Shown: positions 15,801 through 50,720 of the stretch, in pieces | Numbering within the stretch: position 1 is the first letter of the stretch | Layout of the letters: every line of letters begins with the position of its first letter | NCBI RefSeq assembly: GCF_024300825.1 | Contig: NZ_CP101323.1 | Coordinates: forward strand, 1,922,001-1,986,000 | DNA: 64,000 nucleotides | Reading direction: 5' to 3' | Source: Natronomonas gomsonensis | Lineage (GTDB): Archaea; Halobacteriota; Halobacteria; Halobacteriales; Haloarculaceae | Notes under the pieces: model-generated | Database searches by the model: none | What the model was told of the DNA's origin: nothing | The model's input: only the letters and a program-made list of their open reading frames with translations | Position numbers and translations under genes: made by a program

Positions 15801-16395
15801 CGTCGGCCTTCTTGGCGTCGAACTCCGCGACGCCGGCGATTTCGTCGATGATTTCCCGACGGTTGCCGGCCGTCATCGTGATGATTTCGGTCACGTCCCC
15901 CTGCATCACGACGTTGTACCCTTCGGGGGTCACGCCCGCCTGTGCGAGCAAATCGCGGATGTCGGAGAGGTTCACCGACCGACCGTTGAGGTAGTAATAG
16001 GAGTAGTAGGTGTCCTCGTCGGTCTGTTTGACCCGTCGGCGAATCGAAATCTCCTCGACATCGCCGACCTTCTCCGAGCCGGCGGCGGAGACGACCTGGT
16101 CTCGGGAGAGCGTGCCGTCGGCGTTGTCGAGGATGACCTCGACGGCGGCCTCGCGCTCCCCGGCGAAGCCGTCGTCGGCGTCATCGTGACCCGGATTGTA
16201 GATGAGGTCTGTGAGTTTGTCCGCGCGGATGCCCGACGTGCGGGCCAATCCGAGCGCGAACAGAATCGAGTCGATGATGTTGGACTTTCCGGAGCCGTTC
16301 GGACCGCTAATCGTGGTGAAGTCCTCGTAAAACGGGATTCGCGTCTTACGGCCGAAGCTCTTGAAGTTGTCAAGGACGAGCTCTTTGATGTGCAT
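12817..16395 (-). CDS. smc: Chromosome segregation ATPase SMC
   Basis: 1192 residues. Walker A is GPNGSGKSN (31-39). The first coiled coil runs from about 170 to 500. The hinge, about 525-690, includes YGRAVTTILNAEMNGVHGTVGQLGG. The second coiled coil runs to about 1030, followed by the ABC signature SGGEKSL near 1091 and Walker B FYALDEVDAFLD near 1118. The Q-loop VVMQGDVTEII is at about 155. It condenses and resolves chromosomal DNA with ScpA, encoded immediately downstream. Full length for an archaeal SMC. Confidence 0.97.
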   Translation of the reverse strand: MHIKELVLDNFKSFGRKTRIPFYEDFTTISGPNGSGKSNIIDSILFALGLARTSGIRADKLTDLIYNPGHDDADDGFAGEREAAVEVILDNADGTLSRDQVVSAAGSEKVGDVEEISIRRRVKQTDEDTYYSYYYLNGRSVNLSDIRDLLAQAGVTPEGYNVVMQGDVTEIITMTAGNRREIIDEIAGVAEFDAKKADAFEELETVQERVDEAELRIEEKETRLDQLEDERETALEYKDLKDEKAEYEGYQKAAELEDKREEFEAATEKREEKAAELEDLQRELDERQGKVTRLEEDLADLNAEIERKGEDEQLAIKREIEEIKGEVARLEDKVEAAEERIEDSEAKRRQAFVQVDRKQEKIEDLEADIRNKKVEKSSLKADVQEKESELEAVEAEIEAVDTEYEEVRDALEAKREAIQEAKDERNDLQREQDRLLDESRRRSKEEREKREEIEAAEDRLPELDAELSDLENELEKAEANRGTITEVVEDLREEKRGLQEDLESVEDDLSAKQQEYAELEARAGESGDTSYGRAVTTILNAEMNGVHGTVGQLGGVSAEYATACETAAGGRLANVVVDDDGIGQRCIEHLKSRNAGRATFLPMTEMHSRSLPSAPDLPGVIDFAYNLIDFDSAYSEVFSYVVGDTLVVEDMETARDLMGDFRLVTLDGDLVEKSGAMTGGSKSGSRYSFTKSGKGQLERVAERITQLEDEKQSIREDIRDVEERLDGARDRQSDAAETVRDIENDIESVESERQSVESKIERLEDELADIEDEREDVKSEMAAVEDDIEAKNEEIEGLEAEIEELEQELADSDIPELTSKAEEIREEISDLEDRMDDLDGDLNELELEKQYAEEAIEELHDDIETSQNRKAEAEDRVVELEEAIADEEEKLEAKEEAVAELEDELSELKGEREELKGELADAKAARDEQKERVSRVESKLADIEEKLERLEWEIDELSSQVGEYDPEEIPDHETVTSEIARLEAEMTALEPVNMKAIDEYDRVAEELDDLEEKRDTLVEEADGIRERIDAYEARKKETFMEAYEGINEQFEDIFARLSSGSGELVLKDPEDPFEGGLTMKAQPGDKPVQRLDAMSGGEKSLTALAFIFAIQRYNPAPFYALDEVDAFLDAANAEMVGEMVEELAGDAQFVVVSHRSALLERSERAIGVMMQDENVSAVTGIDLSSGEVPADD

Positions 16396-16419
16396 GGGGG
16401 CGCTCGTGGCGTCCCCGAA

Positions 16420-16728
16420 TCAGGCGACGATGATGTCGTCGCCGGACTCGGAGTCCGCGTTGTCCTCCTCCTCGGCCTCCTCGCTTGTAACCTCGTCGGC
16501 CGACGCTTCCCCGTCGTCAGCCGATTCCTCGGTCTCCTGCTCGGGCGTCTGCTCCTGTGCTTCGGCACGGGTCATCCGACCCTCGAGCACGTCGTTTTCG
16601 ATGTTGACTTCGCTCTCGACGGCGTGGAGTCGCTCTTTGGTTTCGACCAACTCGTCGGTTAGCCCGTCGATGGTCGCTTCCAAATCACGCACCTTGGCCT
16701 CGAGTTCCTCCACTCGGTTCCCGGACAT
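16420..16728 (-). CDS. Small acidic coiled-coil protein upstream of smc
   Basis: 102 residues. Residues 1-50 form a heptad coiled coil (VEELEAKVRDLEATIDGLTDELVETKERL, shown only in part here as positions 6-34). The rest is a disordered Glu/Asp/Ser tail ending GDDIIVA. It matches the haloarchaeal small proteins found beside smc (DUF7518-like; family name from memory). It lies 24 bases upstream of smc on the same strand, so it probably shares the transcript and may act with condensin. No enzymatic motif. Confidence 0.8.
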   Translation of the reverse strand: MSGNRVEELEAKVRDLEATIDGLTDELVETKERLHAVESEVNIENDVLEGRMTRAEAQEQTPEQETEESADDGEASADEVTSEEAEEEDNADSESGDDIIVA

Positions 16729-16750
16729 ACCTCCATTGGGCGCCCCCGGA

Positions 16751-16760
16751 CGTATAAAGG
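16751..16760 (-). promoter_or_regulatory. TATA box of the coiled-coil–smc–scpA operon
   Basis: The minus strand reads cctttatacg, 23-32 bases upstream of ATG 16728. This is a good haloarchaeal TATA box placed for leaderless transcription. It lies in the 149-base divergent region shared with gatB. Confidence 0.55.
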
Positions 16761-16877
16761 TGCGTCAGACATTGACAACAGTTCTGATACGTCGCGCGGG
16801 CGGCCCACCTCCGCTCGGTAGTCTGCTTCCCGCATCCGTTCGTTAGCCTAATGCATCCCCGCGAGTACGTACACCCA

Positions 16878-18371
16878 ATGACCGCACAGACCGCCGAGCA
16901 ACGCCAACTCACGGCCGTCATCGGCCTTGAGGTTCACGTCCAACTCGAGACGGACACGAAGATTTTCTGTGGCTGTTCGACCGACGCCGCCGCCGACGAG
17001 GAGCCGAACACCCGGACCTGTCCCGTCTGTCTGGGACTGCCGGGGACGCTACCGGTGCTCAACGAGGGGGCCGTCGAGGCCGCCGTGAAGGTGGGGAAAG
17101 CACTCGATTCGGACATCCCCGAGGAGACCCGGTTCCACCGGAAGAACTACTACTACCCCGACTTGCCCAAGAACTTCCAGATAACGCAGTACGACGCGCC
17201 GGTGTGTGACGGCGGCGAACTCGAATTCTCCGTCGAAGGCGAGCGCCGGAGCGTCCGCATCGAACGCGCCCACCTCGAGGAGGACCCCGGAAGTCTCCAA
17301 CACGCCGGCGGGTCCATCGACACCGCCGAGTACACGCTCGTCGACTACAACCGCGCCGGGACGCCGCTGATGGAAATCGTCACCGCTCCCGACTTCCGCG
17401 GTGCCGAGGAGGCCCGGGCGTTCCTCGCGAAACTCACCGAGGTACTGGAGTATCTCGGCGTCTTCGACGCCACCCGGGACGGCAGTCTCCGCGTCGACGC
17501 CAACCTCTCTATCGTCGACGCGAGTGAGGTGGACGACGACGGCGCGATTTCGACCGACGTACTCGAATCGGCCAACCGCACCGAAGTCAAGAACATCTCC
17601 AGTCACAAGGGCGCCGAGAAGGCACTCGCCTACGAGGAGACCCGCCAGAAGAACGCCATCCAGCGCGGCCGCGAAATTCAACAGGAGACGCGTCACTGGG
17701 ACGAATCCCGAGGCATCACCGTCTCGATGCGCTCGAAGGAAGAGGAGAAGGATTACCGCTACTTCCAGGAGGCTGATTTGCCGCCGCTCCGCGTCTCCGA
17801 CTGGAAGGCGAAAATCGACATTCCTGAACTCCCGGACGCTCGCCGCGAGCGGTTCCAAACGGAGTACGGCCTCGATTCGGAGTCGGCCTCGAAACTCACC
17901 TCCACGAAACAGGTCGCGGACTTCTATGAGCGCATCGCCGAGACGTTCGACGCCGGACTGGCGGCGACGTGGGTCGCCGACAACCTCCTCGGCGAGTTGA
18001 ACTACCGCGACATGTCGATTACCGACATCGAGGGGCGTCTCGACGAGTTCGCGCGTCTCGTCGAGTTGGTCGGCGACGACGAAATCACGACGAAAAACGC
18101 CGAGGAAATCGTCCTCCGCCGGATGCTCGACGACGAACTCACGCCGGACGACATCGTCGAGGAGGAAGGCCTCGGAAAGACCGACGAAGGCGCCGTCGAG
18201 TCCGCTGTCGAGTCGGCCATCGAGGACAACCCCGACGCCGTCGAGGACTACCACGCCGGCGAGGACGGCGCGCTCAACTTCCTCGTCGGGCAGGTGATGC
18301 AGGAGACGGGCGGCAGCGCCGACCCCGGGACCGTCAACGAACTGCTTCGGGAGGCACTCGCTGAAAGCTGA
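16878..18371 (+). CDS. gatB: Asp-tRNA(Asn)/Glu-tRNA(Gln) amidotransferase subunit B
   Basis: 497 residues from ATG 16878 (MTAQTAEQRQLTAVIGLEVHVQL); an ATG at 16851 would add nine residues. Family signatures include TRTCPVCLGLPGTLPVLN (Cys-containing zinc region with CGC upstream), RKNYYYPDLPKNFQITQYD, LEEDPGSLQHAGG and DYNRAGTPLMEIVT. The C-terminal YqeY-like tRNA-tail domain ends NFLVGQVMQETGGSADPGTVNELL. It kinases and amidates mischarged tRNA together with GatA and GatC, which are not in the window. Its stop overlaps the ATG of the next gene (tgATGa). Confidence 0.97.
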   Translation: MTAQTAEQRQLTAVIGLEVHVQLETDTKIFCGCSTDAAADEEPNTRTCPVCLGLPGTLPVLNEGAVEAAVKVGKALDSDIPEETRFHRKNYYYPDLPKNFQITQYDAPVCDGGELEFSVEGERRSVRIERAHLEEDPGSLQHAGGSIDTAEYTLVDYNRAGTPLMEIVTAPDFRGAEEARAFLAKLTEVLEYLGVFDATRDGSLRVDANLSIVDASEVDDDGAISTDVLESANRTEVKNISSHKGAEKALAYEETRQKNAIQRGREIQQETRHWDESRGITVSMRSKEEEKDYRYFQEADLPPLRVSDWKAKIDIPELPDARRERFQTEYGLDSESASKLTSTKQVADFYERIAETFDAGLAATWVADNLLGELNYRDMSITDIEGRLDEFARLVELVGDDEITTKNAEEIVLRRMLDDELTPDDIVEEEGLGKTDEGAVESAVESAIEDNPDAVEDYHAGEDGALNFLVGQVMQETGGSADPGTVNELLREALAES

Positions 18372-18943
18372 TGAACCCCGGTCAACGCGTCGACCCGGTT
18401 GCGGTTCGCTCGACGGCTGTCTCGGTGGCCAGCGACTACGCCTCGGCTGGCAGCGACTTCTCGTATCACCAGGCGGCGGCGATTCACCACCACGTCAACG
18501 AGACCATCAGTTACGTCCCCGACCCGCGTTCGCGGAACTACATCGCCCCGCCCGATGAGACGCTTGAGACGGGCGCCGGCGACTGCGACTGTCAGGCCGT
18601 CCTCGTCGCCTCGCTTTTGGAAGCCATCGGCGCGACGACGCGGCTGGCGACCGTCGAAGCGCCCGACGGGAGCCGACACATGCTCCCGGAGGTGTACCTC
18701 GCCGACGAGGGCGAAGACACCTCGATAATCGCCGACGACCTCGGGGACTTCTACGGCAGTCAGGGCTATTCGACGGGTTGGTTCAACTATGAGACGGATT
18801 CCAGTGGGATGGTGTGGTACCCCGCCGACACCGCGATGGGGTCCTACATCGGCGACCTCTCGGCGCTGTCGGATGCCGGCTACGTCGGCGATTACACCGA
18901 CGGGTCGTGGTCGTGGTACTCCGTCGAGTACCACCACTACTGA
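18371..18943 (+). CDS. Transglutaminase-like (papain-fold) protein
   Basis: 190 residues. The core AAAIHHHVNETISYVPD leads to GAGDCDCQAVLVASLLEAIG, where the Cys of GDCDCQA sits at the transglutaminase nucleophile position. RHMLPEVYL supplies the His and WYPADTAMG a candidate Asp, so a Cys-His-Asp triad is plausible. There is no signal peptide, suggesting a cytoplasmic protease or amidase-like role. It starts inside the gatB stop codon and is therefore co-translated with it. Function in this setting is unknown. Confidence 0.78.
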   Translation: MNPGQRVDPVAVRSTAVSVASDYASAGSDFSYHQAAAIHHHVNETISYVPDPRSRNYIAPPDETLETGAGDCDCQAVLVASLLEAIGATTRLATVEAPDGSRHMLPEVYLADEGEDTSIIADDLGDFYGSQGYSTGWFNYETDSSGMVWYPADTAMGSYIGDLSALSDAGYVGDYTDGSWSWYSVEYHHY

Positions 18944-24293: not shown

Positions 24294-24335
24294 TACACAA
24301 TTCCCATGTATTGGGACTTCCACACAATATTAATA
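24294..24335 (+). promoter_or_regulatory. Sulfur locus A promoter: TACACAA and CACAATAT half-sites plus TATA
   Basis: TACACAA (24294-24300) is identical to one arm of the dyad at 49544-49562, and CACAATAT (24323-24330) runs into the TATA-like aatattaata (24326-24335), 31-40 bases before the tusA-like ATG 24366. An operator overlapping TATA would give repression. Confidence 0.4.
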
Positions 24336-24365: not shown

Positions 24366-24608
24366 ATGACAGAGACAGATATTCAGCCGACGGAGACGGT
24401 CGACGCTCGGGGGTCGGCCTGCCCCGGTCCGTTGATGGACCTTATCGGCAAGATTAGAGCGGTCGAATCGGGCGAGGTCGTGCGCCTTTTAAGCGATAAC
24501 GAGCAGTCGCTGACCGATGTCGAAGAGTGGACGAACGAGGCCGGAAACGAGCTGCTAGCGGTCGAGGAGGAAGACGACCACTACGCGTTCTACGTGGAGA
24601 AAGCATGA
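24366..24608 (+). CDS. TusA/SirA-like sulfur carrier protein (locus A)
   Basis: 80 residues with the family C-P-x-P motif (SACPGPLMDLI, Cys19), whose cysteine carries a persulfide in TusA proteins. The beta-alpha-beta-alpha-beta-beta pattern and the terminal DDHYAFYVEKA are typical. Its stop overlaps the start of the SQR-like gene by 4 bases, so sulfane sulfur may be passed between them. A second paralogue lies in locus B (45568). Sulfur relay to tRNA thiolation is less likely given this operon. Confidence 0.9.
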   Translation: MTETDIQPTETVDARGSACPGPLMDLIGKIRAVESGEVVRLLSDNEQSLTDVEEWTNEAGNELLAVEEEDDHYAFYVEKA

Positions 24609-25747
24609 CCGACCATATCGTCATCCTCGGTGGCGGGACCGGTGGGGCCGTGTTGGCGAACGACCTCGCCGACCGGCTGGACGCCGAACTCGAAGCCGAC
24701 GAGGTCAGAGTCACACTCGTCAACGACGGCCCCGACCACGTCTACAAGCCAGTGTGGCTGTACGTCCCGTTCGGTGAGCGCGAGCCAGCCGACGGCCGTC
24801 GGCCGCTGGACGAACTCGTCGACGACCGAATCGACCTCCGCATCGACCGCGTTACGGACATCGACACGGACAGCCAGCGGCTCCGGATGCGCGATAAAAC
24901 CTCGCTCAGTTACGATCATCTCGTGCTCGCGACCGGGTCGACGCTCGCACCCGAGGAGATACCCGGCTTGGACGAGGGCGGCCACGACTACTACAGCGAA
25001 TCCGGGGCGGAGACGCTGCGCGAGGAGTTGCTCTCGTTCACCGAGGGCCACCTCGTGTTGAGCGTCATCGGGACGCCGCACATGTGTCCGGCGGCACCGC
25101 TCGAGTTCGTGTTCATGGCCGACGACTGGTTCCGAAAGCGCGGCCTCCGGGAGGACGTCGAGATCACCTACACCTACCCGATTCAGCGCGTCCACGGCAA
25201 TCCCCACATCGCCGAATGGGCCCGGCCGCTCATGGACGACCGCGACATCAACGTCGAGACGTTCTTCAACGCCGAGTCAGTCGACGCCGAGGCCAACCGG
25301 CTTACCTCGATGGAGGGAACCGACATCGACTACGACCTGCTGGTCGGTATCCCGCCGCACCGCGGCGTCGACCTCGTCGAGGACGCGGGCCTCGGCGACG
25401 ACGGCTGGGTCGAGGTCGACCAACACACCCTCGAAGCCGAGAACGCCGAGAACGTCTACGCAATCGGTGACACCGCCGACACGGGTGCCCCGAACGCCGG
25501 CAGCGTGGCCCACTATCAGGCCGGCGTCGTCGGCCGCCGACTCGCCAGTGCGGTTCGCGGCCGCCCGGCGACGGCGACCTACGAAGGGAAGACGCTGTGT
25601 TTCGTCGAGACGGGCATGGATTCGGCGTCGTTCGTGGAGTTCGACTACGAAAACCCGCCGTCGCCGGTGCCGCCCTCGGAGAAAATCCACTGGGCGAAGT
25701 TGGCGTACAACGAGTCCTACTGGCTCACCGCACGGGGGTTACTCTGA
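24605..25747 (+). CDS. Sulfide:quinone oxidoreductase-like flavoprotein
   Basis: 380 residues from ATG 24605. The FAD-binding GGGTGGAVLANDLAD motif is at residues 9-23, LATGSTLAPEEIPG at 108-121, and VYAIGDTAD at 284-292. SQR redox cysteines match Cys161 in GTPHMCPAAPLE and Cys332 in GKTLCFVETG; the first cysteine of classic SQR is absent. The C-terminal KIHWAKLAYNESYWLTARG resembles the membrane-anchoring tail of SQR. It is coupled to TusA-like and DUF1641 genes. Likely oxidises sulfide or persulfide to quinone; NADH dehydrogenase-like activity is an alternative. Confidence 0.86.
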   Translation: MTDHIVILGGGTGGAVLANDLADRLDAELEADEVRVTLVNDGPDHVYKPVWLYVPFGEREPADGRRPLDELVDDRIDLRIDRVTDIDTDSQRLRMRDKTSLSYDHLVLATGSTLAPEEIPGLDEGGHDYYSESGAETLREELLSFTEGHLVLSVIGTPHMCPAAPLEFVFMADDWFRKRGLREDVEITYTYPIQRVHGNPHIAEWARPLMDDRDINVETFFNAESVDAEANRLTSMEGTDIDYDLLVGIPPHRGVDLVEDAGLGDDGWVEVDQHTLEAENAENVYAIGDTADTGAPNAGSVAHYQAGVVGRRLASAVRGRPATATYEGKTLCFVETGMDSASFVEFDYENPPSPVPPSEKIHWAKLAYNESYWLTARGLL

Positions 25748-25749
25748 GG

Positions 25750-26376
25750 ATGTCCGGCGAAGCACCCGAGAGTCAGACGGAACTGGAAGCGGCTATCGAG
25801 GAAAACCCGGAAGCGGTCGCGGAGTTCGTCCGCCGACTGGACGCCGTCAACGAACTGCTGGACGTGGTCGCACTCGGCGAAAGCGCGCTCACCGACGAGA
25901 TGGCTCGCGACCTCGCCGACACGACGTCGACGCTCGCGGAGTCGGCAGACGGCCTCGCGACCGACGAGACGGTCGGGTTGGCCGAAAGCGTCGGCCAGAA
26001 CGGCGCGGAACTGCAGGAAACGCTCGAAACCCTCGTGAGCCTTCAGGAGACGGGCGCCCTAGACGAGTTGGTCGAACTCGCGAGCGTGGCGTCGCTTTTG
26101 ACGGCGGCGCTCGACGACGAGATGGTTCGGTCGCTGGCCGCGACCGGCTCCTCGCTCGGGGAGCTCGCCCAGACGGCCGCCGACGAAGAGACCCACGACG
26201 GACTGGAGACGGTCCTTCAGAGCGTCGGCGACGCCGAACGGCAACCGGACGAACGCATCGGTGCGCTCGGGCTGGTGAAAGCCGCACGGGACCCCGACGT
26301 CCAGTACGGCCTCGGCTACGTACTTTCGATTGCCCGAGCCATCGGACAGAACAGACGGCCAGCAGACGACGCCTGA
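25750..26376 (+). CDS. DUF1641 protein
   Basis: 208 residues, almost wholly helical, with repeated amphipathic units such as DELVELASVASLLTAALDDEMV. The characteristic final segment GLVKAARDPDVQYGLGYVLSIARAIGQ matches DUF1641, which in archaea and bacteria is found next to SQR-like flavoproteins and formate dehydrogenases. It starts two bases after the SQR-like stop. Probably an accessory subunit that binds the flavoprotein at the membrane (inference). Confidence 0.85.
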   Translation: MSGEAPESQTELEAAIEENPEAVAEFVRRLDAVNELLDVVALGESALTDEMARDLADTTSTLAESADGLATDETVGLAESVGQNGAELQETLETLVSLQETGALDELVELASVASLLTAALDDEMVRSLAATGSSLGELAQTAADEETHDGLETVLQSVGDAERQPDERIGALGLVKAARDPDVQYGLGYVLSIARAIGQNRRPADDA

Positions 26377-43416: not shown

Positions 43417-43550
43417 ACCACGACATCGTCAACGAAGCGGTATGGATTCCAAGGTTTACATTCGAACCGTCACCGGACCGCGGAGCAACCACACGAGTAG
43501 ATGAGCTCTGAGTCAGCAGAACTCAAGTGAAACCTGGGAGATTACCAGCC

Positions 43551-44915
43551 ATGGCGTCTGACTCGTTTACGTTTGCTGCTACGGGAGACGCAATTCTCGC
43601 TAACTCAGTATCTACTCTCGAAAGTGAGAGAGATGGATTTGGCGCCCTTCTCGACGTTCTCCGTGCCGCCGATGCTGCGGTGACGCAGGTCGAACCAGTC
43701 TTGGTGACCGAAGGTACACCCCACGCCTCGCTCCGACAGGAAACCGACCAGTACCAGTATCTCGCACCGTTTCCGGGAGCCATCATGGGTTCCGACCCCT
43801 CTATTCTCGACGAACTGGTCAACATGGGAGTGAACCTATTCACGGCAGCCTCGAATCACGCCCTCGATTTCGGAGCGACGGGGGTTCGGAGCACGCTCTC
43901 TGCGATGCATACGCGAGACGTACCCTTCGCAGGTATCGGGCGAGACTTGACAGAGGCACGGTCTCCAGCGTATTTGGACACGGAAGCGGGGCGCGTGGGG
44001 CTCCTCAATGCGACGACAAGTGTTCCCCCTGGTGGAGAGGCGGGCGTTTCCACGTCTAGGTTCGATGGCGAGTGTGGAGTCAATCCGCTCCACGTGGAGT
44101 GGACGTATCGGATGCTGCCCGAGCATCTTGACCAACTTCAGACGATTGCTGACCGGACCGGAATCGACCAAATCAAAGGAGAGTGGCTTCGGCGCGAAAA
44201 CCCCGACTGGCGAACGGACGACGCGTACTACTTCATGCAGATGCGGTGTGCTCCGGCAACGGAGCAACAGCCACCCGGCATATATCACTCCGTTCACGAG
44301 CGAGACCGTGAGGCACTCCTCGGTGGAATCGGTGATGCGGATGCCGCCGCCGATTGGGTAATTGTAGCTCTGCACGTCCACCAGGCTAGAGATGGGAACC
44401 GCAACACGAGTGAAACGCCCAAATTCCTCCAGCGAGTCGCCCACGAGTGTGTCGAGACAGGTGCCGATGCAGTCGTCGTGACGGGACCACACGCCCTCCG
44501 TGGAGTCGAACTCCACCAAGAGCGGCCGATTTTCTATTCGCTCGGGAACTTCTTCTTTCAAGAGGAGGCGATCCATCGGATCCCGGAATCCATCGACCAA
44601 CCCGTCGAATCCACCGTACCAAATGTTCGTGGGTCGTCTGCTGGCCAAGAGACGGCTTCGACGGTCGCCCACGACGCGGACAACTGGATGTCGTTCGTCC
44701 CACGGTGTGAGTTTGCAGCGAATGGGACCCTTACTGACGTAACGCTCTATCCGTGTACCCTACAGCCACGTGCGCCCGTTCCACAGCGCGGAACGCCGAC
44801 TCTCGCCACCGGCCAAGCGGCACGCGATATTCTCAGAACCGTCGCTGAGCGCTCTGCGGCGTTCGGTACGACCATTCGTATCGAAGATGAGACCGGTACG
44901 ATTACTCTCGCGTGA
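43551..44915 (+). CDS. CapA-family (PGA_cap) metallophosphatase-like protein
   Basis: 454 residues. FAATGDAILANSVS starts the calcineurin-like fold; TAASNHALDFGATGVRSTL has the Asn-His pair, WVIVALHVHQARDGN gives H-x-H, and VVVTGPHALRGVELHQERPIFYSLGNFFF completes it. In bacteria CapA makes poly-gamma-glutamate; in archaea the role is unclear. No capsule genes adjoin. Codon use is visibly less GC-rich than in neighbouring genes (many codons ending in A or T), so it may have been acquired. ATG 43527 would add eight residues. Confidence 0.85.
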   Translation: MASDSFTFAATGDAILANSVSTLESERDGFGALLDVLRAADAAVTQVEPVLVTEGTPHASLRQETDQYQYLAPFPGAIMGSDPSILDELVNMGVNLFTAASNHALDFGATGVRSTLSAMHTRDVPFAGIGRDLTEARSPAYLDTEAGRVGLLNATTSVPPGGEAGVSTSRFDGECGVNPLHVEWTYRMLPEHLDQLQTIADRTGIDQIKGEWLRRENPDWRTDDAYYFMQMRCAPATEQQPPGIYHSVHERDREALLGGIGDADAAADWVIVALHVHQARDGNRNTSETPKFLQRVAHECVETGADAVVVTGPHALRGVELHQERPIFYSLGNFFFQEEAIHRIPESIDQPVESTVPNVRGSSAGQETASTVAHDADNWMSFVPRCEFAANGTLTDVTLYPCTLQPRAPVPQRGTPTLATGQAARDILRTVAERSAAFGTTIRIEDETGTITLA

Positions 44916-44984: not shown

Positions 44985-45566
44985 TTAGACCAGCAGTTGG
45001 ATGTCCGACTCCGCCATGTGCTGGAGAGCGGTGGCGGCGCCGACGCCGACGGTCACGTCGTCGTAGAAGTCGTCCTCGTCGTACTCCATCAGTTCGATGG
45101 TCATCTGACAGGCCTGCAGTTCGACGCCCTGGTCTATCGAGAGCTCGATGAGCTCTTCGATGGTGGCGGTGCCGTTGTCGGAGATGCGCTTTTCCATCAT
45201 CTTCGTCGCCATGCTGTCCATCCCCGGGAGCGCCGCGAGGGCGTTCGGCATCGGCATGCTCGGGTTGCCGACAGCGGAGAGTTTCAGGTCCTTGGACTTC
45301 TCCTCGTGGAGGATGTCCAGTCCCCAGAACGTGTGGAAGACGACGACGTCCCAGCCGAAGGCGGCGGCCGTCGACGCGAGGATGAGCGGCGGGTACGCCA
45401 TGTCGAAGGTCCCCTGCGTGGCGACGATGGTCATCTTCTTGGTGTCGTCTGCGGTGTCGGTTTCCAGCGTGGCGACTTTGTCCTCCAGTTCCTCGATGCG
45501 GGCCTGGAGCTCCGCTTCGGTCAACGGCTCGCTGTCGGCCGACGACGCGGGCGTGTCAGTACTCAT
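44985..45566 (-). CDS. DsrE2-like sulfur-relay protein (locus B)
   Basis: 193 residues from ATG 45566. A coiled coil (EAELQARIEELEDKVATLET, about 17-36) precedes the DsrE fold (KKMTIVATQGTFDMAYPPLI). FHTFWGLDILHEEKSKDLK and NPSMPMPNALAALPGMDSMATKMM are DsrE2 signatures, and the only cysteine, Cys153 in LQACQMTIEL, is at the conserved persulfide position. Bacterial DsrE2 has membrane helices at the N-terminus; here they are replaced by a coiled coil. It lies one base after the TusA stop, so both are co-expressed. Confidence 0.9.
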   Translation of the reverse strand: MSTDTPASSADSEPLTEAELQARIEELEDKVATLETDTADDTKKMTIVATQGTFDMAYPPLILASTAAAFGWDVVVFHTFWGLDILHEEKSKDLKLSAVGNPSMPMPNALAALPGMDSMATKMMEKRISDNGTATIEELIELSIDQGVELQACQMTIELMEYDEDDFYDDVTVGVGAATALQHMAESDIQLLV

Positions 45567-45567
45567 T

Positions 45568-45813
45568 TTACGCGGTCTTCTCGACGTAGTGTTTGTACAC
45601 GTCGCCGTCCTCGACCTGTTCGAGGAGTTCGACGCCGTCGGTTCCTGTTGCCCAGCCATCGAGGTCGCTCATGCTGCCGGAGTCGGTCGCCAGCACTTCC
45701 AGCACCTCGCCCTCGGCGAGGTCGTCGATAGCTTGCTTCGTCTTCACGACCGGCATGGGACACGATGCACCTTTCACGTCGAGCGTCTGTGAGATGTCGA
45801 ATTCTGCACTCAT
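45568..45813 (-). CDS. TusA-family sulfur carrier protein (locus B)
   Basis: 81 residues. KGASCPMPVVKTKQAIDDL has the C-P-x-P motif (Cys18), and DVYKHYVEKTA is the family C-terminus. It is the first gene of a minus-strand pair with dsrE2. In bacteria TusA and DsrE2 exchange sulfane sulfur, so the order is functionally consistent. It is divergent from the rhodanese-MBL gene through a 245-base AT-rich region. Confidence 0.93.
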   Translation of the reverse strand: MSAEFDISQTLDVKGASCPMPVVKTKQAIDDLAEGEVLEVLATDSGSMSDLDGWATGTDGVELLEQVEDGDVYKHYVEKTA

Positions 45814-46058
45814 TGTTGTTTCTTCACTCCGTGTTCTGTATTGGAGCTATCGCACAATATAGGAGCCAGGGATAAAAGAATATCGTTTCTTGCACTATCC
45901 TCAAACAACCGTCCGCCACACAGCTACTCGATTAATCATCGCATATGCGCGCTTACGCACCTATTTCCGATGTGATTTCGGAGTCCACCCAGCTACTGTA
46001 TTGTGCCATATATGAACTACTATGCAAACTCTTTAGTACGTCCACCCAGTAAGGAAGC
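45814..46058. promoter_or_regulatory. Divergent promoter region of sulfur locus B
   Basis: A 245-base AT-rich intergenic stretch. It contains GCACAATAT (45852-45860) near the tusA side and TATTGTGC (45999-46006), the exact reverse complement of GCACAATA, near the rhodanese-MBL side, next to a TATA-like catatatgaa. Arms of the same operator type occur at 24294 and 49544. No ORF of note is seen in it. Confidence 0.5.
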
Positions 46059-47261
46059 ATGTACGACATGAACGCCGAAGACTTCCCGACCCCGGACGAA
46101 CCGGTCGACTCGATTACCCCCGAAACGCTGAAGGGGCGAATCGACTCCGGCGAGGACATCACTATCCTCGACGCTCGCATGGAAGCCGATTACGACGAAT
46201 GGCACATCGACGACGACAACGTCACCACCATCAACGTCCCCTACTTCGAGTTCCTCGATGAGGAAATCGACGAGGACATCCTCGAAGCGATTCCCGATGA
46301 CCGCGAAGTGACCGTCCTCTGTGCGAAGGGCGGCGCAAGCGAGTTCGTCGCGGGCACTCTCGCCGAACGCGGCTACGAGGTCAACCACCTCGAAGACGGC
46401 ATGAACGGCTGGGCTCGCATCTACGAGGCCGTCGAAGTCACCGACTACGACGGCGCCGGCACGCTCCTGCAGTACCAGCGGCCCTCCTCGGGCTGTCTCG
46501 GGTACTTCCTCTACGACGACGGCGAAGCCGCCGTCATCGACCCGCTGCGTGCCTTCACCGACCGCTACCTCGAAGACGCCGACGAACTGGGCGTCGACCT
46601 GCAGTACGCCTTCGACACCCACATCCACGCCGACCACATCTCCGGACTGCGCGACCTCGACGCCGAGGGCGTCGAAGGCGTCATCCCGGAGGCCGCGGTC
46701 GCACGGGGCGTCACCTACGCCGACGAACTGACGACCACCGAAGACGGCGACACCTTCGAAGTCGGCGACGCCACCATCGAGACCGTCTTCACACCCGGCC
46801 ACACGACGGGCATGACCTCGTATCTCGTCGACGACTCGCTTCTGGCCACCGGCGACGGCCTCTTCATCGAGAGCGTCGCCCGCCCCGACCTCGAAGAGGG
46901 CGACGACGGCGCGCCCGAAGCCGCACGCATGCTGTACGAGTCGCTTCAAGAGCGCGTCCTCACCCTGCCCGACGACACGCTAATCGGTGGCGCTCACTTC
47001 AGCGACGCCGCCGAACCGGCCGACGACGGCACCTACACTGCCCCCGTCGGCGACCTCGTCGAGGAGATGGATGCGCTCACCATGGACGAAGACGACTTCG
47101 TCGAACTCATCCTCTCGGATATGCCGCCGCGTCCGGCCAACTACGAGGACATCATCGCGACGAACCTCGGACAGAACACCGTCGACGACGAGGAAGCGTT
47201 CACCCTCGAACTCGGGCCGAACAACTGCGCCGCGAGCCAGGAATCCCTCGCGGGTGACTAA
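46059..47261 (+). CDS. Rhodanese–metallo-beta-lactamase fusion (persulfide dioxygenase/sulfurtransferase type)
   Basis: 400 residues. Residues 15-125 are a rhodanese domain with active loop LCAKGGASEF (Cys88). Residues 135-350 are an MBL hydrolase with THIHADHISG (His188, His190, Asp192, His193), a later FTPGHTTGM and a GDGLF acidic site, as in ETHE1-like persulfide dioxygenases. The order, rhodanese first, is opposite to the common PRF fusion. It likely oxidises or transfers persulfide sulfur fed by TusA/DsrE2. ATG 46068 is an alternative start. Confidence 0.9.
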   Translation: MYDMNAEDFPTPDEPVDSITPETLKGRIDSGEDITILDARMEADYDEWHIDDDNVTTINVPYFEFLDEEIDEDILEAIPDDREVTVLCAKGGASEFVAGTLAERGYEVNHLEDGMNGWARIYEAVEVTDYDGAGTLLQYQRPSSGCLGYFLYDDGEAAVIDPLRAFTDRYLEDADELGVDLQYAFDTHIHADHISGLRDLDAEGVEGVIPEAAVARGVTYADELTTTEDGDTFEVGDATIETVFTPGHTTGMTSYLVDDSLLATGDGLFIESVARPDLEEGDDGAPEAARMLYESLQERVLTLPDDTLIGGAHFSDAAEPADDGTYTAPVGDLVEEMDALTMDEDDFVELILSDMPPRPANYEDIIATNLGQNTVDDEEAFTLELGPNNCAASQESLAGD

Positions 47262-47269
47262 CACCGCCG

Positions 47270-47827
47270 ATGGTGACTGACCTACTCGTACTCCAATCGG
47301 CCGCCGAGCTGTTCCCCAACGGGGTCAGTCGCTACGCCGTCGGTGGGCTGCTGGTCGGTCTCGGAGCGGTCGTAATTTATCTCGGGACGGGCATTCCAGC
47401 CGGTGCGAGCACGTTCCTCGAATCGACGCTCTCGTACGTCTCGGACCAATCGCGGTTCCAGCAGTACGTCGCCTCCCGGGATTGGCGCGTCGTGTTCACG
47501 GTCGGTATCATCCTCGGAGCGGCGCTGTTCGCGGCGACGGTCCAATCCGGCGTCATCACGACGTCGCTGTACGAGCCCGGTACCACCGGCCAACTGTATG
47601 AAGTCGCCGGCGTGACACTGTGGTTGACCGACGTACAGCCCTGGCGGCTGTTCTTCGGTGGCATCCTGGTCGGCATCGGTACCCGAGTCGGCAAAGGGTG
47701 TACGTCCGGCCACGGCGTCTGCGGCGTCGGTTCGGCGTCGAAGACGTCCATCGTCGGCGTGGTGACGTTCATCTTAGTCGCCATCGGGACGGCACAACTC
47801 GTCGCGGCGCTGGGGGTGAGCCCGTAA
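47270..47827 (+). CDS. YeeE/YedE-family membrane protein, first half-unit
   Basis: 185 residues with four to five helices. TRVGKGCTSGHGVCGVG (Cys144 and Cys151) is the conserved G-x-G-C-T-S-G-H-G motif of YeeE/TsuA, where cysteines line the thiosulfate path. The stop overlaps the next start (taATG), so both half-size proteins are made together and probably form one transporter. It starts eight bases after the rhodanese-MBL gene. Likely imports thiosulfate or another sulfur species. Confidence 0.9.
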   Translation: MVTDLLVLQSAAELFPNGVSRYAVGGLLVGLGAVVIYLGTGIPAGASTFLESTLSYVSDQSRFQQYVASRDWRVVFTVGIILGAALFAATVQSGVITTSLYEPGTTGQLYEVAGVTLWLTDVQPWRLFFGGILVGIGTRVGKGCTSGHGVCGVGSASKTSIVGVVTFILVAIGTAQLVAALGVSP

Positions 47828-48285
47828 TGGCGGACCGACATCCGCTGTTCAAGCCGCTGATACTCGTCGGCGGCCTGATATTCGGGTTCGGGCTCGGCTT
47901 CAGCCACATGGCGCGACCGGAGGTCGTGTTGAACTTCCTCCAGTTCGAGGACCTCGGACTGGTGTTCGTCATGTTCGGCGCGGCCATCGTCAGCGGCATC
48001 GCCTTCGCGGTGATGCCACGAATCCGGGACACTGCACCGCTGACCGGTGACCGCTACGAGCGACGCCTGAAGCCCTTCGACAAGAACGTCGTCATCGGCG
48101 GCGCCATCTTCGGCGTCGGCTGGGGGCTGTCAGGTATCTGTCCCGGTGCCGCCTACGCCAGCCTCGGCGTCGGCAACGTGACCATTCTGTGGGCGCTGGC
48201 CGGCATGTTCGTCGGCGCGTACGCACAGGGCGTCTGGCGGAGTCGAACGACTGACGCCGCCGCTACGGCCCCGGCCGACGACTGA
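47827..48285 (+). CDS. YeeE/YedE-family membrane protein, second half-unit (DUF6691-like)
   Basis: 152 residues with about four helices. FGVGWGLSGICPGAAYA (Cys105) is the second-half cysteine motif of YeeE/YedE. Together with the preceding 185-residue protein it reconstitutes a full-length YeeE-like channel. Its ATG overlaps the upstream stop, implying translational coupling and equal stoichiometry. Confidence 0.9.
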   Translation: MADRHPLFKPLILVGGLIFGFGLGFSHMARPEVVLNFLQFEDLGLVFVMFGAAIVSGIAFAVMPRIRDTAPLTGDRYERRLKPFDKNVVIGGAIFGVGWGLSGICPGAAYASLGVGNVTILWALAGMFVGAYAQGVWRSRTTDAAATAPADD

Positions 48286-48315
48286 CACCCCGTTTCGGAT
48301 TCGTTTCTACACTAC

Positions 48316-49500
48316 ATGGAATCCTCCATCATTATCCTCTTCGTCGTCGCCGGCTTCGCGAGTCTGTTCATGGCGTGGGTCATCGGCGCCGGCTCCAGCG
48401 GTGCGACCCCCTTCGCGCCGGCGGTCGGCGCGAACGTCATCACGACGATGCGAGCCGCGTTCGTCGTCGGCATCTTCGGCTTCGCCGGCGCCGTGACACA
48501 GGGAGCGAACGTCTCCGAGGCCGTCGGTCGCGGCCTCATCGGCGGCATCACCCTGCCCGCGACGGCCGTCATCGTCGTGTTGTTCATCGGTGCCGGACTG
48601 ATGGCCATCGGTATCAAGACTGGCTACCCCATCGCGACGGCCTTTACCGTCACGGGGTCGGTCATCGGCGTCGGCTTCGCCCTTGGCGGGACGCCGGTGT
48701 GGCCGAAATACCAGCAAATCGGCGCCGTCTGGCTGCTGACACCCTTCGTCGGCGGCGGGATGGCCTACGGTATCGCGAGCGTACTCCCTAGGTCGGACGT
48801 GCCCGAGCGCCTGAGCGTCGCGATGCTCGCGGGCGGTGTCGGTGCCGTCCTCGCCAACGTCGAGTTCGTGCTGCTCGGCCCCGACGGAACGCCCGGGTCG
48901 TTGGTCGGTGCCGGACAGCGACTCTCGGGAATCGACCACTGGACCGCACCAATCGTGTTGTCGGTTGCCGTCGCAGTCGCCGTCGCCACGCTCGTTTACG
49001 CCGACATCCGGCGGGACGAGGCGGGCGGACTCAGACGTGTGCTGTTGGCGTTCGGGTCGCTCGTGGCCTTCTCGGCGGGTGGCAGTCAGGTCGGCCTCGC
49101 GGTCGGTCCCCTGTTGCCGCTGCTCGACGACGTGGGGATGATTTCGCCGTTCGTCGTGTTGGTCGGCGGCGGCGCCGGCATCCTCGTCGGCTCGTGGACC
49201 GGTGCGCCGCGGATGATTAAATCGCTCGCACAGGACTACTCCTCGCTGGGGCCGCGACGCTCCATCGCCGCGCTCGTCCCGTCGTTTCTTATCGCCCAAC
49301 TCGCCGTGCTGTTGGGCGTCCCCATCTCGTTCAACGAAATCGTCGTGAGCGCGATAATCGGCAGCGGCGCGGCGGTCGGCGGGTGGGGCAGCGTCAGCGC
49401 TCGGAAAATCCTCCTGACGGTCGGCGCGTGGGTCGCCTCCTTCGGTATCGCCTTCGTCGCAGGCTACGGGGCGATGGCCGCGATAGCGCTTCTGGGGTGA
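48316..49500 (+). CDS. PiT-family anion permease (sulfate or phosphate)
   Basis: 394 residues, about ten helices in two inverted halves. ANVITTMRAAFVVGIFGFAGA and NEIVVSAIIGSGAAVGGWGSVS are the two PiT repeats. PiT-family members carry phosphate, but CysP-type members carry sulfate or thiosulfate, and the position 30 bases after the YeeE genes favours a sulfur anion. No second phosphate gene is near. Substrate remains an inference. Confidence 0.87.
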   Translation: MESSIIILFVVAGFASLFMAWVIGAGSSGATPFAPAVGANVITTMRAAFVVGIFGFAGAVTQGANVSEAVGRGLIGGITLPATAVIVVLFIGAGLMAIGIKTGYPIATAFTVTGSVIGVGFALGGTPVWPKYQQIGAVWLLTPFVGGGMAYGIASVLPRSDVPERLSVAMLAGGVGAVLANVEFVLLGPDGTPGSLVGAGQRLSGIDHWTAPIVLSVAVAVAVATLVYADIRRDEAGGLRRVLLAFGSLVAFSAGGSQVGLAVGPLLPLLDDVGMISPFVVLVGGGAGILVGSWTGAPRMIKSLAQDYSSLGPRRSIAALVPSFLIAQLAVLLGVPISFNEIVVSAIIGSGAAVGGWGSVSARKILLTVGAWVASFGIAFVAGYGAMAAIALLG

Positions 49501-49543
49501 CCCACTTCGGAAAACGCCCGCTTGCGACCCATCGAGCACAGGA

Positions 49544-49562
49544 TTGTGTAATATCTACACAA
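49544..49562. promoter_or_regulatory. Perfect dyad TTGTGTA-N5-TACACAA upstream of the regulator
   Basis: Seven-base inverted arms with spacer atatc, lying directly before the TATA-like tcttttaac (49564-49572) of the HTH gene. This is the typical place for an activator or autoregulatory operator. The TACACAA arm recurs exactly at 24294-24300. Confidence 0.6.
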
Positions 49563-49601
49563 GTCTTTTAACTACGTAGTGCCTACCGACTGACGATACA
49601 A

Positions 49602-50006
49602 ATGCCAGATTCGATGTCCGAACAACTCCAGCAGGACATGGAGTGTGAAGGACTCCTCGAGTGTTTCCACGGTCTCAAACAGCTCGACAGGGAGTGCTTT
49701 CAGGCACTCGTCGACGCCGCGGAACCGCTCACAGTGGACGAAATCGCCGAAGCGGTCGACCGCGAACGTTCGACCGCCTACCGCTCGGTTCAGCGACTGC
49801 TCCAGACCGGTTTCATCCAGAAAGAGCAAGTCAACTACGACCAGGGCGGCTACTACCACGTCTACTTCCCGACGGACTCCGAGAAGATTACCGACGACAT
49901 GCAGCGAATGTTGAACGACTGGTACGCGAAGATGGGCCAACTCATCCAGGAGTTCGAGAACAAATACGAGGAAGGCGAGATGGCCGTGCCGTCGGCCGAA
50001 AGCTAA
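49602..50006 (+). CDS. TrmB/MarR-like winged-helix regulator with N-terminal cysteines (locus B)
   Basis: 134 residues (ATG 49614 is an alternative start). The N-terminus CEGLLECFHGLKQLDRECF holds Cys15, Cys21 and Cys32. A winged HTH follows (PLTVDEIAEAVDRERSTAYRSVQRLLQTGFI), then a C-terminal helix (EKITDDMQRMLNDWYAKMGQ) for dimerisation. The cysteines could sense persulfide or redox state. It lies beside sulfur transport genes and behind a palindromic operator, so it probably regulates them. No sugar-binding domain of TrmB is present. Confidence 0.85.
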   Translation: MPDSMSEQLQQDMECEGLLECFHGLKQLDRECFQALVDAAEPLTVDEIAEAVDRERSTAYRSVQRLLQTGFIQKEQVNYDQGGYYHVYFPTDSEKITDDMQRMLNDWYAKMGQLIQEFENKYEEGEMAVPSAES

Positions 50007-50059
50007 CGCCGAAGGCGTCGTCGGAGCCGTGGAACGCGAGGGGGCGGGGAGAACTCACC

Positions 50060-50263
50060 CTACTCCGCATACAGCAGTGTCCGTCCACACTCCGGGCAGA
50101 CGTACGGAACGGGCGTCAGAATCTCGTCGGCGCGAAAACTCCCGAGAAAGCCCTCGTCTGACCCTTCCGAGACAATAGATAGGTCCCCGAGTGCGTCCGT
50201 TCCCTGTAGTTCCATCTGTTCGAGCGGTTCCGCACAGTCCGGGCATTGCTTTTCCGTCGACAT
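50060..50263 (-). CDS. Small zinc-ribbon protein
   Basis: 67 residues: QCPDCAEPLEQ at the start and YVCPECGRTLLYAE at the end give two C-x2-C knuckles forming one ribbon, with a variable central loop. Found across haloarchaea as an uncharacterised protein. It is convergent with the HTH regulator and divergent from thioredoxin. Confidence 0.8.
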   Translation of the reverse strand: MSTEKQCPDCAEPLEQMELQGTDALGDLSIVSEGSDEGFLGSFRADEILTPVPYVCPECGRTLLYAE

Positions 50264-50332
50264 CTACCCTGGGCCACGCTCGGAAGGGAAATGAGCCTCG
50301 CGAAAACAGTATTGTCTGCTTTGTCCAAAACT

Positions 50333-50340
50333 CTTAATTA
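50333..50340 (+). promoter_or_regulatory. TATA-like element of thioredoxin
   Basis: cttaatta lies 21-28 bases before ATG 50361 (24-31 before ATG 50364) in a locally AT-rich segment. This favours the second ATG as the leaderless start. Confidence 0.4.
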
Positions 50341-50360
50341 CTGCCGACTCATACAGGGGA

Positions 50361-50720
50361 GTGATGACAACCGAAACGACGTCCGACGCCGGGTCGGCCG
50401 CGCCGACGGACCCCGTCCACATCGGAAACACGAACGAGCTGAACGACCTCGTAGCCGAGCAGGACGTGGTCCTGACGGACTTCTACGCCGACTGGTGTGG
50501 TCCCTGTCAGATGCTCGAACCCGTCGTCGAAACGCTCGCCGCCGAGACCGACGCCGCGGTCGCGAAAGTCGACGTTGACGCGAACCAGCAGTTGGCGGCC
50601 GCCTACGGCGTCCGTGGCGTCCCCACGCTCGTCCTCTTTGCCGACGGCGAGCAGGTCGAGGAAATCGTCGGCGTCCAGGGCGAAGACCAACTCCGCTCGC
50701 TCATCGAATCATACGCCTAA
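50361..50720 (+). CDS. trxA: Thioredoxin
   Basis: 119 residues. FYADWCGPCQMLEPVVETLA has the redox CGPC (Cys46 and Cys49), GVRGVPTLVLFADGEQV holds the cis-proline. A hydrophilic 20-residue N-terminal extension precedes the fold. ATG 50364 may be the true start. Reduces disulfides and persulfides in the cytoplasm; its place at the edge of locus B suits release of sulfane sulfur from TusA or DsrE2. Confidence 0.94.
   Translation: MMTTETTSDAGSAAPTDPVHIGNTNELNDLVAEQDVVLTDFYADWCGPCQMLEPVVETLAAETDAAVAKVDVDANQQLAAAYGVRGVPTLVLFADGEQVEEIVGVQGEDQLRSLIESYA

Follow-up and report, generated by a model that had tools for sequence, protein, structure and literature searches.

Which task does a compact cluster of sulfur genes serve in a haloarchaeon: the acquisition of sulfur, its detoxification, or something else? 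The question is raised by the window analyzed here, a stretch of 64,000 nucleotides from Natronomonas gomsonensis (contig NZ_CP101323.1, positions 1,922,001 to 1,986,000), in which positions 44,985 to 50,720 encode DsrE2- and TusA-type sulfur carriers, a fusion of a rhodanese with a metallo-beta-lactamase (MBL) fold, two half-YeeE membrane proteins (PmpA and PmpB), a PiT-superfamily permease, a winged-helix regulator, and a thioredoxin. An earlier sequence-only reading had combined nine genes of this region into an uncharacterized system for sulfur acquisition or detoxification under one regulator. Gene content, synteny, conserved cysteines, metal-site motifs, a shared promoter motif and patterns of co-occurrence are observed directly, and the cluster is probably a haloarchaeal version of a module for import and disposal of sulfane sulfur.

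The arrangement of the cluster is far from chance. In a sample of 80 named PmpA-encoding loci, onto which the genes of the window were mapped, the core, i.e., DsrE2-TusA divergent from rhodanese-MBL-PmpA-PmpB, keeps the same order and orientation in each of the 62 full-length loci (62/62), and the conserved gene order across Halobacteria that the sequence-only reading had named as a check is thus borne out. PmpA itself is encoded in 178 of 194 sampled Halobacteria genomes (about 92%). A PiT gene follows PmpB in 46 of the 62 loci and TauE is located within 9 kb of the core in 43; other genes found near the core code for sulfide:quinone reductase (SQR) and a DUF1641 protein (24/62), coenzyme A (CoA)-disulfide reductase (18/62), and thioredoxin reductase (15/62). 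Under generic annotations, the cluster is also present on plasmids of Halobacterium salinarum, Haloarcula hispanica, and Natrialba magadii. A mini-protein with a HalOD1 domain is encoded just beyond DsrE2 in 23 of the 62 loci, and in Halosegnis rubeus the whole core (regulator, PmpB, PmpA, rhodanese-MBL, TusA, DsrE2; locus positions 15046-18500) occurs once more in diverged form, about 6 kb from the first copy.

A second sulfur operon, absent from the sequence-only reading, lies in the same window about 20 kb from the DsrE2-PmpAB cluster and consists of TusA2-SQR-DUF1641 (24366-26376). In Haloarcula hispanica, genes for TusA, an FAD oxidoreductase and DUF1641 are situated directly beside DsrE2, and the best match of this oxidoreductase is the model for type III SQR. 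Its single close copy in the window genome (82% identity) is encoded at 24605-25747, and for this protein type III SQR is again the closest model (NF049943), with 339.9 bits against a cut-off of 525 that was set for a selenoprotein subtype. Elsewhere, the window genome encodes two members of the TauE family as well as a CoA-disulfide reductase whose gene is followed by one for a paralogous rhodanese-MBL protein. Cluster and SQR operon look like one coordinated sulfur-defense system.

When residue conservation was scored across more than 80 loci, all cysteines of the predicted sulfur relay proved to be conserved, comprising DsrE2 C153 (99% of 84 loci), TusA C18 (100% of 85 loci), rhodanese C88, PmpA C144 and C151, and PmpB C105; the first two had been correctly named as carrier cysteines by the sequence-only reading. 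The cysteines of PmpA and PmpB are invariant in haloarchaea and bacteria. That reading had also recognized two half-YeeE units with cysteine motifs. Both halves are indeed there, as adjacent short genes whose products each match one half of YeeE and carry a conserved cysteine, but they are not novel: PmpA corresponds to the C-terminal and PmpB to the N-terminal half (PMC11582611), and what was termed “split YeeE” is a transporter pair already known as PmpA/PmpB (YedE1E2), for which transport of sulfane sulfur is predicted in haloarchaea. Compared to bacterial pairs from plasmids, identities amount to 30-38%, with GCTSGHGxCG and CP motifs in common. The closest named relatives, N. gomsonensis YCN60 and Natronomonas sp. 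CBA1123, are 98-99% identical in PmpA.

In the rhodanese-MBL protein the rhodanese domain (residues 20-119) precedes the MBL domain (residues 149-312), and the ETHE1 motifs THxHADH, TPGH, and GD are retained together with a late histidine, H313. A structural model based on 24 relatives (mean predicted local distance difference test score of 81) has human ETHE1, the CstB-type 3r2u from Staphylococcus aureus and PRF from Burkholderia among its best fold matches. From motifs and model, the protein is predicted to be an ETHE1/CstB-type persulfide dioxygenase (PDO). Its C-terminus carries an invariant ELGPNxCAA, kept even in paralogs of about 40% identity; the model shows little order in this tail. 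In the PiT permease, alignment to TmPiT (6L85), the nearest solved relative and a phosphate transporter, indicates that IGAND is replaced by IGAGSSGA and GANDVAN by GGSQVGL, the replacement residues at both sites being nearly invariant. With both GAND motifs lost, phosphate transport is unlikely and PiT is disfavored as a phosphate uptake system; it matches the model of the sulfate permease CysP weakly, and a sulfur oxyanion is a possible substrate.

Common control of these units is supported by a repeat shared by their promoters. In an alignment of 77 divergent intergenic regions (that of the window and 76 others) two blocks are conserved, and the block on the TusA side holds TATTG-N11-CAATA, with ATTG-N11-CAAT exact in 74/77. 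In scans of the 150 bp upstream of each gene, in which mismatches were counted against TATTG-N11-CAATA, the repeat was exact in 81/85 TusA promoters and had at most two mismatches in 61/76 rhodanese-MBL promoters (modal position -60), 25/25 thioredoxin promoters, 22/26 TusA2-SQR promoters, and 27/27 promoters of a small gene preceding TauE, while CoA-disulfide reductase genes have it at about -51 in 16/40 cases. Genes in the interior of operons are almost devoid of it (PmpA, 0/62; SQR, 0/27; PiT, 1/59), and it occurs in 0.4-8% of shuffled sequences. In the window alone, ATTG-N11-CAAT with one mismatch allowed is not enriched (3 sites versus a mean of 4.1 expected), and the case for the motif therefore rests on its conservation across genomes and on exact genome-wide counts: the 194 genomes contain 555 exact sites versus 77 for the reversed pattern, with 3.0 sites per genome where PmpA is encoded and 1.25 where it is not. 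The window genome has only four exact sites, of which one lies at the TusA-DsrE2 promoter and another at the TusA2-SQR promoter; sites with a single mismatch precede thioredoxin and the CoA-disulfide reductase gene and also occur upstream of TauE. Conserved synteny and shared motif together uphold the earlier view of the sulfane-sulfur module as a unit. The other two exact sites, at 99657 before a PAS/histidine-kinase-like gene and at 2814562 between two genes, the right-hand one universal-stress-like, have no established tie to sulfur and might mark further regulon members.

By sequence and by fold, the closest solved relatives of the regulator are MM_1094 (3r0a) and AbfR2 (6cmv) from a small TrmB/Sta1/Lrs14 group. 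OxsR (HVO_2970) of Haloferax volcanii belongs to the same TrmB-family group and acts through C24 (PMC9426492). A strong relative of the regulator (best E<1e-45) is encoded in 178/178 PmpA-bearing genomes, and 5/16 PmpA-less genomes have a match only at E ~1e-9 (Fisher p=2e-6 for co-occurrence, uncorrected for phylogeny). The window genome encodes the regulator once more, with 82% identity, on the main contig at 2800103-2800474. That the module is under one regulator, as the sequence-only reading had it, is plausible, and binding of the regulator to TATTG-N11-CAATA is putative. We tentatively propose, with a confidence somewhat short of even, that this TrmB-family protein with its invariant cysteine pair may be an archaeal sulfane-sulfur sensor of a class-wide TATTG-N11-CAATA regulon, which would include PmpAB, TusA/DsrE2, the rhodanese-first dioxygenase, SQR, TauE, CoA-disulfide reductase and thioredoxin, and that it may thus be an independent archaeal counterpart of the bacterial CstR, BigR and SqrR.

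Judging from the protein families involved, the module for import and disposal would probably work as follows. PmpA and PmpB would form one YeeE-like channel, through which sulfane sulfur or thiosulfate would move inward along the conserved cysteines, and TusA, then DsrE2, would bind it in the form of protein persulfides. From there, the fusion protein would use its rhodanese domain to load the sulfur onto a small thiol, which in haloarchaea is probably gamma-glutamylcysteine or CoA, and the ETHE1-like iron domain would employ O2 to oxidize the resulting persulfide to sulfite. Thiols would be restored by thioredoxin and CoA-disulfide reductase, and a sulfur oxyanion such as sulfite would be moved by PiT (locally) or TauE (encoded elsewhere in the genome). 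Where present, TusA2-SQR-DUF1641 would supply sulfur from sulfide, and the two-cysteine TrmB-type regulator would sense sulfane sulfur and control the units through the TATTG-N11-CAATA sites. Fluxes, substrates and direction of transport, like the sensing step and the binding of regulator to motif, are assigned here by family membership. If this is true, sulfane-sulfur handling would be a basic haloarchaeal trait with its own type of regulator and operator. Such a reading jointly explains genes now annotated just as “MBL fold,” “YeeE/YedE,” “inorganic phosphate transporter,” or “helix-turn-helix,” and the motif provides a ready target list for electrophoretic mobility shift assays, chromatin immunoprecipitation and reporter work in tractable hosts.

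Several observations weigh against such a module. The regulator gene is found within 9 kb of the core in only 37 of the 62 loci, its promoter fits the motif less well than the others (at most two mismatches in 17/44, three in most others), and several PmpA-less genomes retain it, which means that the regulator has other roles too. In Hyphomicrobium, PmpAB is reported to have no connection with thiosulfate oxidation (PMC11582611). Profile searches with PmpA and PmpB against sequences of the PDB gave no matches, and scores stayed below the cut-offs of the NCBIfam equivalog models for DsrE2, SQR and Blh. Finally, SQR (E<=1e-60) is encoded in 103/194 genomes versus 178/194 for PmpA and is therefore optional; sulfide would thus be one input and not the sole one, and TusA2-SQR was rejected as an obligate source of sulfur.

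Among other explanations, the one that survives best concerns the motif. TATTG-N11-CAATA could be a core-promoter element or the binding element of another factor, and not a target of the cluster’s TrmB-type protein, as the weakest match at the regulator’s own promoter and the overlap of half-sites with the A-rich BRE (B recognition element)/TATA region in several promoters might suggest. We consider this unlikely, as the repeat at TusA is placed on the downstream side of the TATA-like box instead of coinciding with it, exact sites are 7-fold more frequent than those of the reversed control, and regulator-less genomes have fewer of them (0.8 versus 2.9 sites, p=0.01, n=5).

A second explanation is acquisition, with PmpAB and PiT importing thiosulfate and TusA/DsrE2 supplying sulfur for the synthesis of cysteine and molybdopterin and for tRNA thiolation. 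YeeE/TsuA and the TusA-like TsuB provide such thiosulfate uptake for assimilation in Escherichia coli (PMC11582611), and the weak resemblance of PiT to CysP, as well as a cysteine-desulfurase-like class V aminotransferase nearby in 17/62 loci, would be in line with it. However, the genes that recur with the core are not those of assimilation but encode SQR, an ETHE1-type dioxygenase, TauE, CoA-disulfide reductase, and thioredoxin. Such partners suit the disposal or oxidation of sulfane sulfur better than they do acquisition, which we hold to be improbable; of the two functions offered by the sequence-only reading, detoxification is the one favored.

Little probability is likewise attached to a general oxidative or thiol-stress regulon, in which the regulator would sense hypochlorite or disulfide stress as a second protein of the OxsR type, with protective persulfides supplied through the sulfur genes. 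The regulator does resemble the OxsR-group proteins MM_1094/3r0a and AbfR2/6cmv (PMC9426492), OxsR targets also include a CoA-disulfide reductase homolog and thioredoxins, and YedE1E2 lowers reactive oxygen species through glutathione persulfide (PMC10812762). Yet descriptions of the OxsR motif call it CG-rich, which TATTG-N11-CAATA is not, a single cysteine is key in OxsR versus two invariant ones here (C15, C21), and the promoters bearing the motif belong mostly to sulfane-sulfur genes. Energy-yielding oxidation, in which sulfide or thiosulfate would be an additional source of electrons by way of SQR and the quinone pool, would accord with the shared motif of SQR-DUF1641 and with cydAB adjoining the cluster in Halobacterium salinarum, but is hardly probable given that about half of the genomes lack SQR and that no sox, sHdr or dsrAB genes occur among the annotated neighbors of the clusters examined.

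Coordinates of the features assigned to disposal of sulfane sulfur, and of those next to them, are compiled in the table. All nine open reading frames of the sequence-only reading are present at their positions according to open frames and Pfam, and eight identities are supported by Pfam. The nine-gene module is reduced by one, since the CxxC mini-protein, found in only 2/62 loci, both of Natronomonas, was rejected as a member and is a mere local neighbor. On the other side, a gene of the PGA_cap family (43527-44915) adjoins the cluster; its match to the model of the lasso-peptide epimerase MslH is far below the cut-off and no link of the gene to the sulfur cluster was seen.

Table. Features of the sulfur cluster and of the SQR operon (positions in the window; aa, amino acids).
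Feature	Position	Strand	Evidence and remarks
TusA2-SQR repeat, operator-like, exact TATTGGGACTTCCACACAATA	24309..24329	.	upstream of TusA2-SQR
Second TusA (TusA2)	24366..24608	+	sequence match; CPGP motif
Type III-like SQR	24605..25747	+	NF049943, 339.9 bits; C161 and C332 invariant
DUF1641 protein, SQR partner	25750..26376	+	adjoins SQR
DsrE2-type sulfur carrier, 193 aa	44985..45566	-	Pfam DrsE_2 PF13686, E=2.2e-50; C153 in ACQMT
TusA sulfurtransferase, 81 aa	45568..45813	-	Pfam PF01206, E=9e-21; CPxP motif, C18
Operator-like inverted repeat TATTGGAGCTATCGCACAATA, TATTG-N11-CAATA	45839..45859	.	TusA-DsrE2 promoter; exact in 81/85 loci
Weaker copy of repeat TATTGTGCCATATATGAACTA, 2 mismatches	45999..46019	.	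upstream of rhodanese-MBL
Rhodanese + ETHE1/CstB-like MBL fold protein	46059..47261	+	PF00581, then PF00753; predicted PDO; C88, C146, C390 invariant
PmpA-like membrane protein (YeeE C-terminal half)	47270..47827	+	PF04143 profile positions 175-306; invariant GCTSGHGVCG (C144, C151)
PmpB-like membrane protein (YeeE N-terminal half)	47827..48285	+	PF20398 (DUF6691), PF04143 positions 15-103; C105 invariant
PiT-superfamily permease	48316..49500	+	PF01384; both GAND motifs replaced
Palindrome GATTGTGTAATATCTACACAA, TTGTGTA-N5-TACACAA	49542..49562	.	directly upstream of TATA-like box of regulator gene
TrmB/Sta1-type winged-helix regulator, 134 aa	49602..50006	+	PF01978; C15 and C21 invariant, C32 in 89%
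CxxC...CxxC mini-protein, 67 aa	50060..50263	-	no Pfam match; between regulator and thioredoxin genes
Repeat TATTGTCTGCTTTGTCCAAAA, 1 mismatch	50310..50330	.	upstream of thioredoxin
Thioredoxin (WCGPC)	50364..50720	+	Pfam PF00085; TIGR01068 above cut-off

The designation as an uncharacterized system does not hold in the strong sense, because bacterial counterparts exist both for PmpA/PmpB and for the combination of DsrE, TusA, rhodanese and PDO (PMC10812762; PMC9918477). YedE1E2, the homolog of PmpA/PmpB, is reported to be a bacterial transporter of zero-valent sulfur, and its genes co-occur with those for PDO, SQR, and TauE (PMC10812762); in Bacillus licheniformis a cluster controlled by YrkD (DsrE, TusA, rhodanese, PDO, TauE, thioredoxin, SQR) protects from sulfane sulfur (PMC9918477). 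The kind of system is thus known in bacteria, and its haloarchaeal form is apparently undescribed. A survey from 2024 lists archaeal YeeE for Saccharolobus, Sulfolobus and some Thermoplasmatota only (PMC11582611), and in the open-access literature we found no description of the module in haloarchaea, in agreement with the sequence-only reading.

Bacterial BigR-type operons (ArsR regulator, PmpA, PmpB, MBL dioxygenase, TauE) resemble the haloarchaeal cluster in PmpA/PmpB gene order, in the GCTSGHGxCG and CP motifs, in the MBL dioxygenase, and in TauE (PMC10812762). In contrast, the haloarchaeal regulator is of the TrmB and not of the ArsR type, the MBL protein has an N-terminal rhodanese domain, DsrE2-TusA form a divergent operon, PiT stands beside PmpB, and a shared repeat is known from haloarchaea, to which the search was confined. 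In the YrkD/CstR clusters of Firmicutes (yrkE-yrkJ, ydfQ, sqr-pdo; cstA, cstB), a sulfane-sulfur sensor likewise controls DsrE, TusA, rhodanese, PDO, thioredoxin, SQR and TauE (PMC9918477), but this is a CstR-type regulator, PmpAB is not reported for them, and their order of rhodanese and PDO domains differs.

At the level of single proteins, the MBL-rhodanese fusions PRF and CstB, as well as Blh, resemble the haloarchaeal protein in joining an ETHE1-type catalytic domain to a sulfurtransferase domain. The rhodanese domain is C-terminal in PRF/CstB and N-terminal in haloarchaea, so that the haloarchaeal protein departs from the PRF/CstB domain order, and the invariant C-terminal ELGPNxCAA distinguishes it from PRF/CstB and Blh. 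OxsR is, like the regulator described here, a single winged-helix protein of the TrmB family with an N-terminal cysteine (PMC9426492); compared by its published description, it differs from our regulator, which has two invariant cysteines, another DNA motif and a neighborhood of sulfur genes. The haloarchaeal form differs from its bacterial counterparts in the family of the regulator, the domain order of the dioxygenase, the divergent DsrE2-TusA operon, the PiT permease, and the shared repeat.

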